Source: Thermospira aquatica
GTDB taxonomy: Bacteria > Spirochaetota > Brevinematia > Brevinematales > Thermospiraceae
NCBI RefSeq assembly: GCF_023525255.1
Contig: NZ_CP073355.1
Span: 1 to 64,000 of the forward strand
Direction of reading: 5' to 3'
Length of the DNA stretch: 64,000 bases
The notes below the pieces were generated by a model. That model did not search any database and had not been told where the DNA came from. It worked only from the letters and a program-made list of their open reading frames with translations. Both the position numbers and the translations under genes were made by a program. Shown here piece by piece: positions 5,370 through 40,287 of this stretch (the first letter of the stretch is position 1; each line of letters begins with the position of its first letter).

Positions 5370-5779
5370 GCTCTTCCCTTGTTGCAGTGGGTTAGCAAGA
5401 GAAATCCTGTGATACGACAAGAGCATGGTTTTTTTCCTGCGATATGGGAATAGCTTTGGATTTTTCACTTTCACTGTTACAGGGAAACAGCTAACAATCC
5501 TTTGTTTTTCACAGCAACAGGAAAAGAATATTCTCAAAACAGTTGAGCGAGTGAGATGGAGGAGCGCTGTTAAATGTTTAATCTACAATTTCCGACATAA
5601 GCTCTTTCCATGTTGCAGTTTTGGCAAAAAATGTACTATGATAAAGGAAGAGCTCATTTTTCCAAAGGCGAAGAAAGTGCTCTTTCCATATTTCAGTTTT
5701 GTGATCTTCTTTAATGGTTTCTTTTGACTGCGATAAGGGAAGAACTAACATTCTCTCCAAGCTGCAACATGGGAAGAGC
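5370..5779. repeat. Interspersed 19-mer array C (mixed orientation)
   Basis: Ten degenerate copies of the 19-mer GCTMTTMCCNTRTYRCAGT in the gene-free tract before murA. Forward copies start at 5370, 5601 and 5679. Reverse-complement copies start at 5406, 5436, 5473, 5511, 5635, 5727 and 5761. The pairs 5601/5635 and 5679/5727 face each other and could form imperfect stem-loops. The best copies differ from the consensus at one or two positions; 5406 and 5511 are poor. No protein is encoded here. The same motif forms the arrays at 31.3 and 39.3 kb. Confidence 0.75.
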
Positions 5780-28515: not shown

Positions 28516-29529
28516 TCAATGCCCTGGATGACCCATTTCCAGTATCTCATCCATCCCATCCTCCTCGTCATACTCAATACCCTCCAGAAAGGTACCAGAA
28601 AAGTGCCTGAAATCGGTCGTTTTCTCCCACTGTTTCCCCCCGAGAGGCTTCACCATGAGTTCAGAAAACTCTGAAAGCTTCCAGTCACCTATCCTGTTCG
28701 CTACCGCTCTATTCATCTTCACTTTGCCTGTTTTGGGATCTCGTATCGTGAAATCCTCCCCACTGTAGTCTTTTCTTGTCTTGCGGTAGACATAGATCCC
28801 ACCATCCGTCATATCAAACTCAATGATATGCACATCATGGGTGATCCCCATCTTCTTGAGACTCCCGGCAAACCGACTGCTGGGATCATACCAAATAAAA
28901 TGGGGCACGTAGGCAGGGATTCGGACAAGAAAACGATCTTTGTACACCTCGAGAAAATTCTTCTTATCCTCTTCGAGAACAACTACATCGTATTTTTTAC
29001 CCTGGTAAAAGAATTCTATCTCACTTATACACGTATCATCATATCGGGTTCCAGGATAGGTAGAGAGGACTCTAAAAGAAAACCATTGAACCTTTACAGC
29101 TCTTCCCAACTTTATCTCTTGAGGTCCCCACTCATCTTTTAATGGAAACACTTCTCCATTGATCACATATTCATCCTCAATTTCTCCCTCCTTTTCTACA
29201 TAGAGAACTCCTGCTATACCAATTTCTTTTACCCTGTTGTTAGCCAGGTACACATTTGTATTCTTTTGATACCCATTGTAAATCACTATAGTGTCAATAA
29301 AAAAGGGTTCTCTAAATACTATTCGAAAATAAGGAGGGACATCACTCGCTGTGTAGTTGGTGTTTACAGCTACACAGGTAGAGAGGTTTTTGTCTAACGC
29401 CAGATAAGGAAAATAGGGGGGTACCACCGCCTGCCAGGCATTCTCTCTATTCGTTCCATCTAGGCGTATCTGCCCATACGCTACCGTTATCCCCAAGATG
29501 AACCATACTATCACAAAAAATCGTTTCAT
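28516..29529 (-). CDS. Secreted discoidin/NADase-type glycan-binding-like protein
   Basis: 337 aa. Signal peptide MKRFFVIVWFILGITVAYG. Residues about 25-190 have the pattern of a discoidin-like glycan-binding module (ALDKNLSTCVAV, YFRIVFREPFFIDTIVIYNGYQKN, WFSFRVLSTYPGTRYDDTCISEIEFF). The C-terminal block KPLGGKQWEKTTDFRHFSGTFLEG also ends the two 70-aa proteins at 30960 and 39003, so it is a shared module. AAAGGAGG precedes the ATG. Confidence 0.65.
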   Translation of the reverse strand: MKRFFVIVWFILGITVAYGQIRLDGTNRENAWQAVVPPYFPYLALDKNLSTCVAVNTNYTASDVPPYFRIVFREPFFIDTIVIYNGYQKNTNVYLANNRVKEIGIAGVLYVEKEGEIEDEYVINGEVFPLKDEWGPQEIKLGRAVKVQWFSFRVLSTYPGTRYDDTCISEIEFFYQGKKYDVVVLEEDKKNFLEVYKDRFLVRIPAYVPHFIWYDPSSRFAGSLKKMGITHDVHIIEFDMTDGGIYVYRKTRKDYSGEDFTIRDPKTGKVKMNRAVANRIGDWKLSEFSELMVKPLGGKQWEKTTDFRHFSGTFLEGIEYDEEDGMDEILEMGHPGH

Positions 29530-31264: not shown

Positions 31265-32180
31265 GCTGTTTCCTTGTTGCAGTGTAAGAAGGGACGCTTG
31301 TTGCTATTACCTTATCGCAGTACAAAAAACTCCAGCTATTACCATATTGCAGTTAATGCGTGAAACCCGAAAGTTATTCCCTTGTTGCAGTGGAAAACAG
31401 CAATGCTCTTACCTTTTCACAGTCAAAACGAGAAAATTTATTCCCTTATCGCAGTTGGTCTTTCCCCGGTAGCTCTTTCTTTATTGCAGTTGAGAAGCAG
31501 GAAATTTTTTAGCTATTACCCTGTTGCAGTCGGAAGGTATTGTTTAGTGTTGCGGGAAAAACTCTTGCTGTTACCTTGTCACAGTGGGAAAAATTCCGGT
31601 TATTACCATGTCGCAGTGAAAGCTTGAAACCTGAAAGCTCTTCCCGTGTTGGAGGGGAAGGGAGAGAGGATATGAGCTATTACCTTATCGCAGTTAAAAA
31701 GACTGCCATGCTCTTCCCTTGTCGCAGTGTGCCTGTCATGCGGGCTATTACCTTGTCGCAGTGAACTGGAGGGAATTAAGAGCTCTTCCCGTGTTGCAGG
31801 AGAAAAAAAATCTTTTGCTATTACCATGTTGCAGTTTGGAGTTCAAGACTTAAAAGCTTTTTCACTATTGCAGTGGTGGATGAAGAGGAGTCTTTTGCTC
31901 TTCCCATATTGCAGTCAAAAACACCGTGAAAGCCGTTGCAATTGCAGTGGCAATCGAGGGAGAAGCTCTTACCCTATCACAGTTTTACACTCCGCGCTCA
32001 CACTGCAAAAAAGTAATAGCTCATGTTGAAAATTCCAGAGTCACCATCTCCCCGGATTTTGCTTATCCTCCTCAAAACTTGCTATTCCCTTATCACAGTC
32101 TAAGATGAAGGGCTAAACTGCAACAAGGAAAGAGCACCCGAAAAGTTCAACAAAGAAAAAAGATCTTCCTTTATCACAGC
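31265..32180 (+). repeat. Interspersed 19-mer array A
   Basis: About 24 degenerate copies of GCTMTTMCCNTRTYRCAGT. Forward copies start at 31265, 31303, 31335, 31373, 31405, 31437, 31472, 31512, 31567, 31599, 31637, 31676, 31710, 31744, 31782, 31817, 31856, 31897, 31932 (short), 31965, 32081 and 32162; reverse copies at 32002 and 32117. In the regular part the period is mostly 32-41 bp; spacers are 13-22 nt, unlike each other and rich in A and G. No credible gene. The array is cut off at about 32192 by an insertion sequence. Confidence 0.85.
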
Positions 32181-32292
32181 CACAACAAAAACCATTGTGT
32201 CAAGAAAATTGTGTCTAGTCTCTGTCAAATAAATTAAAATGTCACCTTTTTATTGAAATAGAAATGTCACTTTTTTATGCCGAAACTCTACG

Positions 32293-33564
32293 GGCAGTGT
32301 ATACTTAATTGTGTCTGGTAGGAAAAAGATAACCTCCTGTGATAATATAAATAAAACTATCACAGGAGGCCAGATATGATTGAGACGAAGAATATTTTAG
32401 AGCTATTCAAACCAATTGTCAAGGAAGTATTAGAGAGTATGTTAAAAGAGGAAAGAGAGATTTACCTGGAAAACAATCCTCCCACAAAAGGCAATGGCTT
32501 TTACGAAAGGGATTTAAAGACAGCTTTTGGCGAGCTTACAGCCATACGTGTTCCAAGAACAAGGGATAATGGATTTAAAAGTGCCCTTCTTCCCTATCGC
32601 AAACGCATCACAGAAGACTTAGATGCATTAATCAGGGCTATGTTGATATCAGGAATGTCAACAAGGAAGATAGCAGAAGTTTTAAAAGAGCTTTATGAAA
32701 TAAAGATTTCTTATGCTAACATCTCAAGGATAAGCCAGGTAGGCATAGAAGAGATTCAGAAGTGGCGTAGTCGCCCTCTCATGGAAGAATATGCCGTGGT
32801 ATTTCTGGATGCTATGGTGTTTCTATCAAGAGAGATAGGGTAGAAAATGAATCAATATATGTAGCTATAGGCATTACACCTGAGGGAAGACGGGAGATTT
32901 TAGGATACTACCTGCCAGGAGGCATGGAAAGTGCTTATAACTGGCGGGAAATTTTGGCAGATATAAGAGAAAGAGGTGTCAAACAGATTCATTTTATTGT
33001 CTCTGATGGCTTAAGTGGTATGAAAAACGTCATAACAGAGATATATCCCCACGCAAAGTATCAGCCCTGTGTAGTCCATGTCATGAGAAACATACTGGCT
33101 AAAGTGAGAGTTCAACACAGAAATATCATTGCCACTGAAATAAAGAGGTATTTCATGCCAAAGACAAACAGGAGGCAGAACAATTGTTTATGAAATTTAT
33201 ACAAAAATGGAAAAATATCTATCCCAACTTAATGAATAACCTCTTGACAATAAGAGAGAGAATATATTAACTTACATGGAATACCTGAAGGAATACGAAG
33301 CATGGTGTATACAAACAATGCCCTGGAAAGACTCTTTAAAGAACTTAAAAGGAGATTAAAAACAATGGAAATGTGTCAAAGCGAGGCTTCAGCTGAGAAA
33401 TATCTTTACCTGTTATTAAGATACCAAAATGAGAAGTTCTTAAAAAGAAAGTTAAAAAATTGGGAGTATTACTTTCAACTCTATCGTGAGCAACACTCAT
33501 ACACCAAAGAAAATATTCACAGCGAGGTTATCCTATGACTAGACACAATTTTCTTGACACAATG
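32293..33564 (+). mobile_element. IS256-type element 1, innermost
   Basis: 1272 bp inserted at the very 3' end of the ISNCY-type transposase. Perfect 8-bp target duplication ACTCTACG (32285-32292 and 33565-33572). Imperfect terminal repeats share AATTGTGTCT 14 bp from each end. A stem-loop CCTCCTGTGATA/TATCACAGGAGG (about 32334-32369) lies before the transposase start, overlapping its ribosome site. Confidence 0.85.
32376..33538 (+). pseudogene. IS256-family (mutator) transposase 1, broken
   Basis: N-terminal 150 residues are good (RDLKTAFGELTAIRVPRTRDNGF, VVFLDAMVF), then a one-base loss near 32822 shifts the frame. A middle piece (FIVSDGLSGMKNVITEIYPHAKYQPCVVHVMRN) and a C-terminal piece (YTNNALERLFKELKRRLKTME) follow in other frames. 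The frame break near 33152 (an A missing in EIKEVFHAKDK) is shared with element 2. Confidence 0.85.
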
Positions 33565-34727
33565 ACTCTACGACCATAATCATCTATTTCAAAAAAGTTC
33601 AATTCGATATTTTTCTTAAAAATATGTATACTTCCATCAAGCCAGGTTTTTAAGATAACATTGTCCCCGGGTTTTATGGCTATAGGTTGTTTCTTTTCAA
33701 TCTGGTATATTCTTTTAGAAAACTTTATTGTATAATCTCTATAGACTTTGCACTCGGCCGTATAACAAACATAGTTCCTTAAGTCCTGATCAGGCATTAA
33801 TGCAATATGAAAATCTTCATCCGACAGAGGTTTTTTACTAAATTTTCGGTTATTCTTTTCCCAGTAATATTCTTTCAAAAAACGATTGGCACTGTCAATA
33901 TCCTTTATGTTTTTAGTTTCATTTCTGCTATTAACCTGTCCTGATGGATCCCATTCCATCTCTACGCGTCCTTTTGCCTGGGGACTATGGGCATATATCA
34001 TTTCTATCCCCAGCCTATGGCAGACCTCTCCAAACTTTGTTAGAGGCAATTTCCCTGCAAGCTGTTCTTCTATGGTCGCTTCCCGTTTCGTATAGAACAG
34101 GCTTTTATAATCACAATAGATCGAATAAGGAATACCGTATTTCATTATCCAGTCAAACAAACATTGCAGCGCTACTTGTGTCGTTTCTCCTGTGTCGAAA
34201 AGACCGTAAGATGTGCCTGTAGCATCATCCACCATATTCATCAGACAGACTTCTTTGCCTGTCCCAAACCAGTCGTGAATGCTGCCGTCCATTTGAATCA
34301 TTTCTCCAAAATGCTCTTTTCTCGGCCTTCTGGTACGGTGTTTCGCAGTTTTTCTTATTTTCTTCCACAATCCTGTTTCCATCATCCATAAACGAAGCGT
34401 TGATGCTCCTATTTTTATATGATGTTCCTCATAAAGCTTTTCAGCTATAAATGTCGGCTTAAAACCTTTATAATTATTCCGTACTATCTGCATAATTTTC
34501 TCTTTGATATCACTGCTAATTCTGTGATTCCCCGGTTTGCCTATTAATTTGTGATTGAGGGCTTCATCACCCTTTGATAAATATTCTTTAAAAATTCGAA
34601 TAAGTTGCCTTCTGCAAATCCCCAGTATTATTGCAGCATCTTTCTGCTTGATTTTCTTGTTCTTTACCATCTCCAGTATTTTTGCCCTCTTCTGTGCTTT
34701 AAGTGTCATCGTTATCACCTCTCTCAT
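33528..34727 (-). CDS. ISNCY-family DDE transposase 1, last residues replaced
   Basis: 399 aa from ATG 34727 (AGAGG 6 bp upstream). N-terminal helix-turn-helix (KKIKQKDAAIILGICRRQLIRIFKEYL), then the integrase-like core FGEMIQMDGSIHDWFGTGK, CLMNMVDDATGTSYGLF and a later Glu in the KGRVEMEW region. The natural end is GRRVSA (seen in element 2). Here the inner IS256-type insertion changed it to GRRV plus 11 foreign residues, so the enzyme may still work. All other ISNCY and IS256 transposases in the window are frameshifted. Confidence 0.8.
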   Translation of the reverse strand: MREVITMTLKAQKRAKILEMVKNKKIKQKDAAIILGICRRQLIRIFKEYLSKGDEALNHKLIGKPGNHRISSDIKEKIMQIVRNNYKGFKPTFIAEKLYEEHHIKIGASTLRLWMMETGLWKKIRKTAKHRTRRPRKEHFGEMIQMDGSIHDWFGTGKEVCLMNMVDDATGTSYGLFDTGETTQVALQCLFDWIMKYGIPYSIYCDYKSLFYTKREATIEEQLAGKLPLTKFGEVCHRLGIEMIYAHSPQAKGRVEMEWDPSGQVNSRNETKNIKDIDSANRFLKEYYWEKNNRKFSKKPLSDEDFHIALMPDQDLRNYVCYTAECKVYRDYTIKFSKRIYQIEKKQPIAIKPGDNVILKTWLDGSIHIFKKNIELNFFEIDDYGRRVIVSRKLCLVIG

Positions 34728-34830
34728 CTGCAACCTCTCGTTTTTTTAGTTGCAGTATTTTAAAAGGTGACATTTCTATTTGCACAAAGTGTGACATTTT
34801 AAATTGTTTTCGACAGAAAATTGTGTCTAG

Positions 34831-35992
34831 TCATAGGATAACCTCGCTGTGAATATTTTCTTTGGTGTATGAGTGTTGCTCACGATAGAGTTGAAAGTAA
34901 TACTCCCAATTTTTTAACTTTCTTTTTAAGAACTTCTCATTTTGGTATCTTAATAACAGGTAAAGATATTTCTCAGCTGAAGCCTCGCTTTGACACATTT
35001 CCATTGTTTTTAATCTCCTTTTAAGTTCTTTAAAGAGTCTTTCCAGGGCATTGTTTGTATACACCATGCTTCGTATTCCTTCAGGTAATTCCATGTAAGT
35101 GAATATATTCTCTCTTATTGTCAAGAGGTTATTCATTAAGTTGGGATAGATATTTTTCCATTTTTGTGTAAATTTCATAAACAATTGTTCTGCCTCCTGT
35201 TTGTCTTTGGCATGAAATACCTCTTTATTTCAGTGGCAATGATATTTTTCTGTGTTGAACTCTCACTTTAGCCAGTATGTTTCTCATGACATGGACTACA
35301 CAGGGCTGATACTTTGCGTGGGATATATCTCTGTTATGACGTTTTTCATACCACTTAAGCCATCAGAGACAATAAAATGAATCTGTTTGACACCTCTTTC
35401 TCTTATATCTGCAAAATTTCCCGCCAGTTATAAGCACTTTCCATGCCTCCTGGCAGGTAGTATCCTAAAATCTCCGTCTTCCCTCAGGTGTAATGCCTAT
35501 AGCTACATATATTGATTCATTTTCTACCCTATCTCTCTTGATAGGAAACACCATAGCATCCAGAAATACCACGGCATATTCTTCCATGAGAGGGCGACTA
35601 CGCCACTTCTGAATCTCTTCTATGCCTACCTGGCTTATCCTTGAGATGTTAGCATAAGAAATCTTTATTTCATAAAGCTCTTTTAAAACTTCTGCTATCT
35701 TCCTTGTTGACATTCCTGATATCAACATAGCCCTGATTAATGCATCTAAGTCTTCTGTGATGCGTTTGCGATAGGGAAGAAGGGCACTTTTAAATCCATT
35801 ATCCCTTGTTCTTGGAACACGTATGGCTGTAAGCTCGCCAAAAGCTGTCTTTAAATCCCTTTCGTAAAAGCCATTGCCTTTTGTGGGAGGATTGTTTTCC
35901 AGGTAAATCTCTCTTTCCTCTTTTAACATACTCTCTAATACTTCCTTGACAATTGGTTTGAATAGCTCTAAAATATTCTTCGTCTCAATCAT
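34831..35992 (-). pseudogene. IS256-family transposase 2, broken
   Basis: N-terminal 172 residues intact to VAIGITPEGRR, then a G is lost near 35476 (element 1 keeps it). The frameshift in the EIKEVFHAKDK stretch is the same as in element 1. The C-terminal 117 codons are open (34831-35184). Confidence 0.85.
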
Positions 35993-36142
35993 ATCTGGCC
36001 TCCTGTGATAGTTTTATTTATATTATCACAGGAGGTTATCTTTTTCCTACCAGACACAATTAAGTATACACTGCCTCGAAAAGGGAACGTTGCTTCAAAA
36101 TAAAAAAGTACTCCAAATCTGTGTATAAAATAATCCAGTTCA

Positions 36143-37698: not shown

Positions 37699-38620
37699 TT
37701 AATACTCCTCCTCTAAATACACATCCATTACCCAGCCTTTTATTGTATCTCCTTTTTTATCCTTTATCCCTGTATCTACATAAAGCCAGTATCCCTTCCT
37801 TCTTACACCATCTGAATTTTCTATTTCATACCCAACAACTAACCAATCACTTATCTTTACCCTTGTCCCTCTCTTTAATTGAATTATCACTGCTGAATTA
37901 GTATCCGGCTTTTCAAGAAGATTAACATCGTCACCATATATATAGTAGTATCCCTCACGCTGCCCGGATTCTCATACTCCGCCCATTTCGGAAATTTATT
38001 CTTGTCGGTTATTACCTTTGTACTATAAGCAAATGGAACTCGTAGTTTACCTTTTTCATCGTAATAGAATATATCAACATTATTACCTAACATGATTATA
38101 TTTTTGAATTTATAAATTTTCCTTTCAAACTTTTATTATCAACATTGTATACAAGATTTTTAGTTATTATCCTATAGGTACCATTTGAGTATATCCGATA
38201 ATAAACAACTCCTCCTTCTTCATCAAAGGCTTCTATGAACATTTCCTGTATCTTTTTTACCGGTTTAAAATCGTTCTTACCAGCTAAATGCCTTCTCTCA
38301 GTCCAACCTTGGATTGTTAAAACTTTCCAACCATTATCAGTTAGAACCATCTCCTGATTACTACTCATTCCAGAATCAATATAGAACCACTCAGTAACAT
38401 TTGAATTACTTGCCATTATAATATTCGTCTTACCTAAAATATTAACACATTGAAGATAAGGTAACTGCATTAGTTTCATTGAGTTAGCACTTGGCTGTTC
38501 AAATAATTCCACTTCTCTATCTATAACATAAACCGAATTACTTCCAAAAGGTTTTATTTCAATTGAATAAACACCATTAGAAATGACACATATTACCAGT
38601 ATGAATAATAAAGAGCGCAT
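37699..38620 (-). pseudogene. SH3b-like secreted protein, copy B, frameshifted
   Basis: Signal peptide MRSLLFILVICVISNGVYS, a first SH3b-like part (VIDREVELFEQPSANSMKLMQL ... EWFYIDSG), then a one-base loss in an A-run near 38098 and a second shift near 37945, after which the C-terminal SH3b reads LLEKPDTNSAVIIQLKRGTRVKIS ... WLYVDTGIKDKKGDTIKGW. Homologous throughout to the intact 29720-30601 gene but clearly diverged. Confidence 0.75.
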
Positions 38621-38625
38621 TTAAA

Positions 38626-39006
38626 TTACCTCCTAATAGTTAAGTGTAGATGATGTCTATGTTTATACATAAAATTATACCTCTTTTTAGACAAATTTCC
38701 GTTTGGATATCCTTGTTGCCAAACATTTGGTTGATTATATGTGTTACCTGGTATTTTACTTTTCACCCACCACGGATCCAGCGCCTGACTTACTCTTTGG
38801 TCATTTACCATACTGTTGTACACTTCATTTCTTAACGCCATCGCAGCTTGTGATTGTGGCCCTACAGTCGAATTATTAAACCTTACTGTTAAATTACCCC
38901 TTGTTACAGCTACAATATCTATCCCTCTTCCCGACCCATGAGGGCTTGTAGCGCTATTCCTCCACAAGCTTGATACCTGAATACTATCCACATCCACACT
39001 CCTCAC
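38626..39006 (-). CDS. Small LAS-type (M15-like) metallopeptidase, copy B
   Basis: 126 aa. Same first 31 residues as copy A apart from one change, with SPHGSGRGIDI and a C-terminal HRHHLHLTIRR completing the zinc motif. The centre differs in sequence and is 13 residues longer. GTG start overlaps the TGA of the upstream gene. Followed after 5 bp by the decayed SH3 gene. Confidence 0.6.
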   Translation of the reverse strand: MRSVDVDSIQVSSLWRNSATSPHGSGRGIDIVAVTRGNLTVRFNNSTVGPQSQAAMALRNEVYNSMVNDQRVSQALDPWWVKSKIPGNTYNQPNVWQQGYPNGNLSKKRYNFMYKHRHHLHLTIRR

Positions 39007-39215
39007 TGACTACTTCTATCCAGAACCATCCCCATCCAACCTACGTCATGCATAACACCCTCCAGAAATGTCCCACTAAAGTCTTTAAAATACGGCGTCT
39101 TTTCCCACTCTTTACTCCCTCGTGGTCTTACCATAAGCCCATACACCACACCTCCAGCTACTGCAAACTTTCTCACACCCTTCTTCAAGGCTTCTTCATA
39201 CTCTTTCCACTTCAT
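39003..39215 (-). CDS. 70-aa protein with WEKT-FSGTFLEG tail, copy B
   Basis: Near-identical to 30960-31172. GGGGAGG lies 6 bp before the ATG, a better ribosome site than in copy A, which fixes the start in both. Upstream lies array B. Confidence 0.55.
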   Translation of the reverse strand: MKWKEYEEALKKGVRKFAVAGGVVYGLMVRPRGSKEWEKTPYFKDFSGTFLEGVMHDVGWMGMVLDRSSQ

Positions 39216-39319
39216 AGATACCTCCCCATTTTTTATGTTGGAGCTTTGTTTTATAACTTTTTCGAATGTATTATACCACCAGTTGGGGATTTTTGCAATG
39301 GGCATTTGTCACAATTTTT

Positions 39320-40287
39320 GCTGTTTCCTTGTTGCAGTGTAAGAAGGGACGCTTGTTGCTATTACCTTATCGCAGTACAAAAAACTCCAGCTATTACCAT
39401 ATTGCAGTTAATGCGTGAAACCCGAAAGTTATTCCCTTGTTGCAGTGGCAATCGAGGGATATAGCTATTACCCTGTCACAGTCCCCAGAAACATAAAAAC
39501 TGAAACAAGGTAATAGCAATCCCCCTACCTAACTATTACCATGTTACAGTGTAAAAAGAAACACCCAGATTTTCCCTTGTCGCAGTAAACTCCTGCTCTT
39601 CCCTTTTTGCAGTGGAAAAAATTCCGGTTATTACCATGTCGCAGTGAAAGCTTGAAACCTGAAAGCTCTTCCCGTGTTGGAGGGGAAGGGAGAGAGGATA
39701 TGAGCTATTACCTTATCGCAGGGAGAGTGAAAAAACAAAAGCTCTTCCCTTGTCGCAGTCGGAAGAGGAACCTCTGGCTATTACCTTGTTGCAGTGAACT
39801 GGAGGGAATTAAGAGCTCTTCCCGTGTTGCAGGAGAAAAAAAATCTTTTGCTATTACCATGTTGCAGTTTGGAGTTCAAGACTTAAAAGCTTTTTCACTA
39901 TTGCAGTGGTGGATGAAGAGGAGTCTTTTTGCTCTTCCCATATTGCAGTCAAAACGTACACCGTGAAAGCCCTTCCCTTGTTGCAGTGGCAATCGAGGGA
40001 GAAGCTCTATCACAGTTTTACACTCCGCGCTCACACTGCAAAAAAGTAATAGCTCATGTTGAAAATTCCAGAGTCACCATCTCCCCGGATTTTGCTTATC
40101 CTCCTCAAAACTTGCTATTCCCTTATCACAGTCTAAGATGAAGGGCTAAACTGCAACAAGGAAAGAGCACCCGAAAAGTTCAACAAAGAAAAAAGATCTT
40201 CCTTTATCACAGCCACAACAAAAATATCCTTGCCCTCTTTCTCTGTCACAGCTAAAAACGCTTCCGGTACTCTTCCCATGTCGCAGG
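39320..40287 (+). repeat. Interspersed 19-mer array B
   Basis: Duplicate of array A with changes. The first four units and many later units have the same spacers as array A. Between about 39447 and 39610 the content is different, including a reverse copy near 39499-39517. The spacer GGCAATCGAGGGA appears twice (about 39447 and 39988). Two more units beyond the point where array A is cut (about 40234 and 40269-40287) show the original right edge. No gene seen; 40288-40358 is plain. Confidence 0.85.

Follow-up and report, generated by a model that had tools for sequence, protein, structure and literature searches.

In the 64,000-nucleotide stretch of Thermospira aquatica DNA analysed here (the window), a position weight matrix detects 23 copies of the 19-mer GCTMTTMCCNTRTYRCAGT at 31265-32180, 21 forward and 2 reverse, mostly spaced 32-41 bp apart. 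This agrees with the first-pass annotation, which had counted about 24 copies and had described GCT, CC and CAGT as steady and positions 4, 7, 10, 12, 14 and 15 as variable, as the matrix also finds. Its view of one array of a single motif holds in that the array is real, and has to be amended in that two copies are inverted and two further arrays are present, which brings the window total to three (Table 1). The foldback layout, the IS1595 origin and the partner protein described below also go beyond that annotation. The array consists chiefly of a left arm plus a core. Its homology to sister arrays stops near 32190, ~100 bp before a copy of an IS256-family element. Two such copies, inverted and 99% identical, flank an ISNCY-family transposase gene on this right-hand side (32293-36075), forming a composite structure. 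To the left of this array and of its sister at 39320-40287 lie two similar gene clusters, which encode short proteins ending in HRHHLHITIR together with an MKWKEYEEALKKG protein.

Table 1. Arrays of the 19-mer in the window, parts of the array at 31265-32180 and neighbouring features (TIR, terminal inverted repeat)
Feature	Coordinates	Strand	Description
Array	31265..32180	+	Foldback-type, 23 TIR-derived 19-mers: 18-copy '+' arm, four-copy core, final '+' copy
Left arm	31265..31915	+	18 same-orientation 19-mers, 32-55 bp apart
Core	31965..32135	.	Four 19-mers, '+37-79+36-', nested inverted pairs
Inverted 19-mer in core	32002..32020	-	
Inverted 19-mer in core	32117..32135	-	
Sister array	39320..40287	+	25 copies, largely homologous to 31265-32180
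Third array	5370..5779	.	9 copies, '+---+-+--', TTAAAYGTTTAA palindrome at 5570
IS256-family copy	~32293..33554		
IS256-family copy	34815..36075		
Gene cluster	28516..31184		
Gene within this cluster	28516..29529		NADase-type glycan-binding domain protein
Gene cluster	38096..39305		

A scan of the 2.515-Mb contig gives 523 copies of the 19-mer with at most one mismatch and 0 of the reversed control pattern, which excludes chance and dispels the early concern that the motif might occur at background frequency. A decayed coding sequence, the other origin considered at first, is ruled out by the position of the copies, 640 of the 667 sampled (96%) lying outside called genes though called coding sequence makes up 83% of the total; the sample covers 1.46 of 2.5 Mb, taken in stretches, and genes were called with an ORF-and-codon script. 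The copies form dozens of scattered arrays, with up to 30 TIRs each in two opposed runs, and most arrays are gene-less, in the manner of MITEs. The common plan is a '+' run on the left, a core of the type '+36-79+36-' and a '-' run on the right. Among arrays of mixed orientation that have at least six copies, which are not independent samples, '+' copies lean to the left of '-' copies in 25 of 25 (mean 0.85; shuffled 0.50, maximum of 2000 shuffles 0.62). The gene context of the arrays resembles the background and none is preferred, on which ground a promoter or terminator role was rejected.

The spacers, first described as unique, do differ within the array, yet many recur elsewhere: of 113 same-orientation spacer clusters, 54 are represented in two or more arrays, and in 874 of 1326 comparisons a shared spacer has different neighbours. 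Alignment of three sister arrays reveals gain, loss and swap of complete motif+spacer units, as is evident between 39320-40287 and 31265-32180. This exchange of modules fits the initial idea of a recombination substrate. In duplicate arrays, which are not independent of one another, motif core positions differ by 4.2% versus 11.3% for spacers (p 2e-8).

Comparison with catalytically intact loci of other genomes identifies the 19-mer, from its sequence and position, as the terminal inverted repeat of the IS1595 family (ISPna2-like, DDNK). These loci bear it in the forms GCTATTGCCTTAACTCAGC (locus L139), GCTATCCCCTTAACTCAGC (L143) and CCTATCCCCTTAGCTCAGC (L137), and the right-end copy lies a constant 91 nt beyond the protein match (combined p 1e-12, 32 ends). 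The hosts include SAR324, Solidesulfovibrio, Pseudodesulfovibrio and others; in two of these genomes inward-facing copies of the 19-mer bound a 987-bp element on either side, with few copies elsewhere. Since intact IS1595 elements in other phyla end in the same 19-mer, the array motif is an amplified TIR. The field of protein-binding sites envisaged at first is in keeping with such a motif, which would be an end-binding site of a transposase. The SAR324 genome also contains many ordinary MITE-like IS1595 TIR pairs ~333 bp apart (range about 330-340 bp), for example at C89:2604/2938 and C207:12037/12370. In the T. aquatica genome no intact IS1595 transposase remains to account for the spread of the ~1.15-kb gene unit found in arrays. 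The homology limits of this unit fall at inner, outward-facing 19-mers and not at the outermost ones. No 8-bp target-site duplications (TSDs) were found around the arrays, only chance short repeats, and shuffling could have erased them.

Sixteen IS1595-like loci (genes or remnants) occur in the genome, and every one inspected lies within an array; an intact gene is enclosed by about 13 arrays, and a gene or remnant by about 16. The encoded protein, 266 aa long, has kept its zinc ribbon and HTH (PF12760, 36.5 bits, above cut-off; confident in the structure model). The catalytic half is partly matched by PF12762 (24.4 bits, cut-off 27) and NF033547 (64.3 bits, cut-off 75), both below cut-off, and has a pLDDT of about 40 in the structure model, which leaves room for an alternative active site. 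Of the catalytic positions, D1 and the third are occupied by other residues, and the D2 region is absent. A DDN/DDE triad is absent from all Brevinematales rows of the comparison and from 10 of 11 Paenibacillus rows, canonical rows being DDNK or DDxK, and its loss takes at least two changes on a tree whose base is weakly supported. Judged by its residues, the protein lacks the catalytic competence of an IS1595 transposase. Twelve intact gene copies have a dN of 0.029, a dS of 0.26 and a dN/dS of 0.11, values which indicate that the copies are old and held by purifying selection.

Coupling of the protein and the motif extends to other genomes. In the Brevinematales congener MAGs Ch60 and SKW221, proteins that are 40-45% identical lie amid the diverged motifs GCTATNACCNTRTYTCAGC and GCTATYACGATGTTTCAGC, and the dominant unit in Ch60 is an inverted doublet '+35-'. 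Ch60 and T. aquatica share 17 conserved gene pairs. The motif lies within 7 of these in at least one genome but within only 2 in both, and where a genome lacks it the two genes stand closer together (e.g. a gap of 274 bp vs 1497 bp), which argues that arrays come and go. Over the 17 informative gene pairs, conservation of array position between the species is not significant. A palindrome resembling the LacI operator, GGTTAAACGTTTAACC, keeps a constant distance from the 19-mer in each of these two species but lies on opposite sides of it (centre at -34.5 bp in T. aquatica and +30.5 bp in Ch60). In the two species, 18 of 20 and 20 of 22 palindromes lie within 200 bp of a 19-mer, with about 6.5% expected, which suggests a second bound protein. 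Sites are seen at 5570 of the window, at L225 9009-9739 and in many arrays.

In Paenibacillus, repeats beside the gene of a DDE-less homologue led to a homologous 19-mer, CTGANYNAAKGGGAKAGTG, whose complement fits the TIR frame RCTAT..CC.TT....CAG. It occurs in 7-181 copies per genome, with zero control matches, and builds foldback arrays such as '+51+51+51+53+52+76-45-45-45...'. In a survey of 30 genomes of this one genus, which are related and not independent samples, copies number 1-81 in the 26 genomes that encode the full-length protein and 3, 2, 0 and 0 in the 4 that do not (p 0.001). Those 26 usually encode one or two full-length proteins, and in the genomes listed in full a 19-mer lies within 1 kb of 8 of 10 full-length genes. 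The prediction derived from the protein is borne out in this genus.

The arrays probably form a population of foldback/MITE-like repeats to which a catalytically dead, IS1595-derived transposase binds, in a relationship like that of REPIN-RAYT systems but based on a DDE-family protein. The TIR identity, the foldback layout, DDE loss, purifying selection and protein-motif linkage in two phyla can be read from the DNA, as can module shuffling, protein-motif co-divergence and presence or absence between congeners; from these we would infer binding of the 19-mers, a route of spread, movement and any host benefit or function. IS1595 ends would have multiplied in the spirochaete lineage into composite foldback ends, each comprising an inward TIR run, a hairpin core and an inverted TIR run. 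The IS1595-derived protein has lost its catalytic triad, its gene being retained by selection. Its zinc-ribbon/HTH half most likely binds the 19-mers, and the protein could act as an end-binding, non-cutting partner, whether as a regulator, a synapsis factor or an architectural factor. Recombination at the 19-mers would allow arrays to grow, shrink and exchange motif+spacer modules, and spread may occur through recombination or catalysis supplied in trans, with arrays gained and lost between species. Points against this reading are the absence of TSDs around arrays and of an intact IS1595 transposase in the genome, the limits of the gene unit at inner 19-mers, and the Desulfobulbales homologues, DDE-less yet with no arrays seen beside the gene.

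Aspect by aspect, the arrays resemble different known systems: eukaryotic foldback elements in layout, REPIN-RAYT in biology and IS1595/Merlin in descent. Foldback elements, such as the Mutator/Foldback element Tm1, have composite TIRs made of tandem short repeats in variable number, comprise MITE-like and transposase-bearing members, and possess arms prone to ectopic recombination (PMC3169594). The arrays likewise have inverted arms of short tandem repeats in variable number, whereas the foldback elements known so far come from eukaryotes and have transposases of Mutator or P type, and the arrays are bacterial, of IS1595/Merlin type and DDE-less. As for mobility in the foldback sense, arrays are present or absent between congeners, with no TSD around them. 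With IS1595 elements (ISPna2-like, DDNK) and eukaryotic Merlin they share the 19-bp end and a protein with zinc ribbon, HTH and a C-terminal 'YHxGxxxxHxQRYLDEF' region; unlike in these, the protein lacks catalytic residues, the ends are multiplied into arrays and no TSD is found. For protists, internal tandem repeats of Merlin elements and Merlin-like genes without DDE have been reported (PMC8101967), though not as bacterial TIR arrays. IS1595 MITEs are gene-less units with the same TIR, as arrays are, but have two TIRs where an array has up to 30.

REPIN-RAYT systems consist of hundreds of intergenic short repeats, with hairpin-forming inverted doublets and a linked, co-diverging transposase-derived protein (PMC3116915, PMC8266576). 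The array repeats are likewise intergenic and over-represented, with inverted doublets and a linked co-diverging protein. RAYTs, however, are HuH/Y1 proteins, usually single copy and not mobile, whereas the array protein is a multi-copy zinc-ribbon derivative of the DDE family, and the array 19-mer itself is no palindromic hairpin. The arrays fall outside REPIN-RAYT because the linked protein, by its homology, is an IS1595 derivative and not a Y1/HuH protein (TnpA_REP). In one account, REPIN-RAYT is the first bacterial case of a domesticated transposase living alongside its repeats (PMC8266576). No description of TIR arrays with a DDE-less IS1595 protein was found in the literature searched, from which subscription papers are mostly absent. 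If the reading as a foldback population with a dead transposase is correct, it would add a second, independent case of a domesticated transposase and its repeats, from the DDE family, in spirochaetes and Paenibacillus, in which the ends were multiplied into foldback arms while the cutting residues are gone. The persistence of a repeat population without catalysis of its own, and the organisation of bacterial chromosomes by dead transposases, would become testable. A bolder generalisation, tentative and somewhat improbable, is that on at least two occasions a DDE-family transposase has lost catalysis and been kept as the cognate binder of genome-wide TIR arrays. Such a recurrent system would be a DDE-based counterpart of REPIN-RAYT that organises or regulates chromosomes, perhaps together with another protein at GGTTAAACGTTTAACC.

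The main rival likewise concerns a host role in chromosome organisation or regulation. It regards the whole as a domesticated chromosomal system, in which the DDE-less protein is a DNA-organising factor of the host and the arrays are binding sites kept for nucleoid architecture, insulation or gene regulation, and is somewhat improbable. The higher conservation of the motif core over the spacers, the fixed offset of the palindrome in two species, pointing to a second bound protein, and the one or two full-length copies usual in 26 of 30 Paenibacillus genomes speak for it, as do the dN/dS and dS of the intact copies, although a selfish element needing its protein would also be under purifying selection. 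Array positions mostly unshared between congeners (2 of 7), wide variation in the number of copies per array and of gene copies, and the lack of a preferred gene context weigh against a host system. A still active IS whose ends are unusual in having multiple sites, and which uses a non-canonical active site or catalysis from an unseen partner, is unlikely. It would account for the movement of the gene unit, with its limits at a 19-mer, among array contexts that are unrelated, and for the varying presence of arrays between species, but it has to contend with the altered catalytic residues, the lack of TSDs and a dS among copies too high to favour a recent burst.

Some ISs are known to target REP palindromes, and the IS1595-like copies always lie within arrays, so the arrays might be pre-existing unrelated repeats serving as insertion hot spots; this is very improbable, given that the array motif is identical to the TIR which IS1595 elements carry in other phyla and that motif and protein co-diverge across species. 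The weakest explanation, a guide-type or small-RNA array, can claim regular spacing and well-folding hairpin cores and is scarcely credible in view of degenerate repeats, spacers that are modules common to several arrays, a transposase-like linked gene, the lack of an Rfam family, a same-orientation run that folds like shuffles, and the absence of a match of the array to phage and plasmid collections (a search insensitive to single 13-22 nt spacers). The array at 31265-32180 is not a guide array; the doubt about CRISPR expressed at the outset was justified, and the likeness to guide-type arrays noted with it is not upheld.

RNA folding gives z -4.86 for the minus strand of the core and -0.65 for the plus strand, and hairpin cores generally fold well (z about -4). 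Strand-specific folding was rejected: differences between the two arms of hairpin pairs at positions 14-15 lower the energy of the antisense strand in many cores, yet z-scores do not separate the strands. The same-orientation run 31265-31930 shows no folding advantage over shuffles (z 0.00), on which ground a structured long RNA was rejected, and an Rfam covariance-model search of the window returned 0 matches. Of the short RNAs or hairpins proposed in the first-pass annotation, hairpins are present as inverted TIR pairs in DNA but not clearly as RNAs. Pairs ~36 bp apart combine one CA-type and one non-CA arm (TG, TT or TA) at positions 14-15 in 32 of 40 distinct cases, and CA-CA is never seen among the 40; examples in the window are 31965/32002 and 32081/32117. 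Arm covariation toward perfect palindromes was not found in these pairs, rather the opposite. Their polarity matches the strand of the linked gene in most cases.

Other DDE-less IS1595-like genes were encountered. One occurs in Desulfobulbales (L161, L164, L171, L173, L179, L186 and L203), with no arrays seen beside it, and is possibly a separate domestication. The congener SKW221 encodes a second such protein of 266 aa (L135 2491-5798), surrounded by an inverted repeat of its own, TTTGAGAAAAGGAGAGAACAT.
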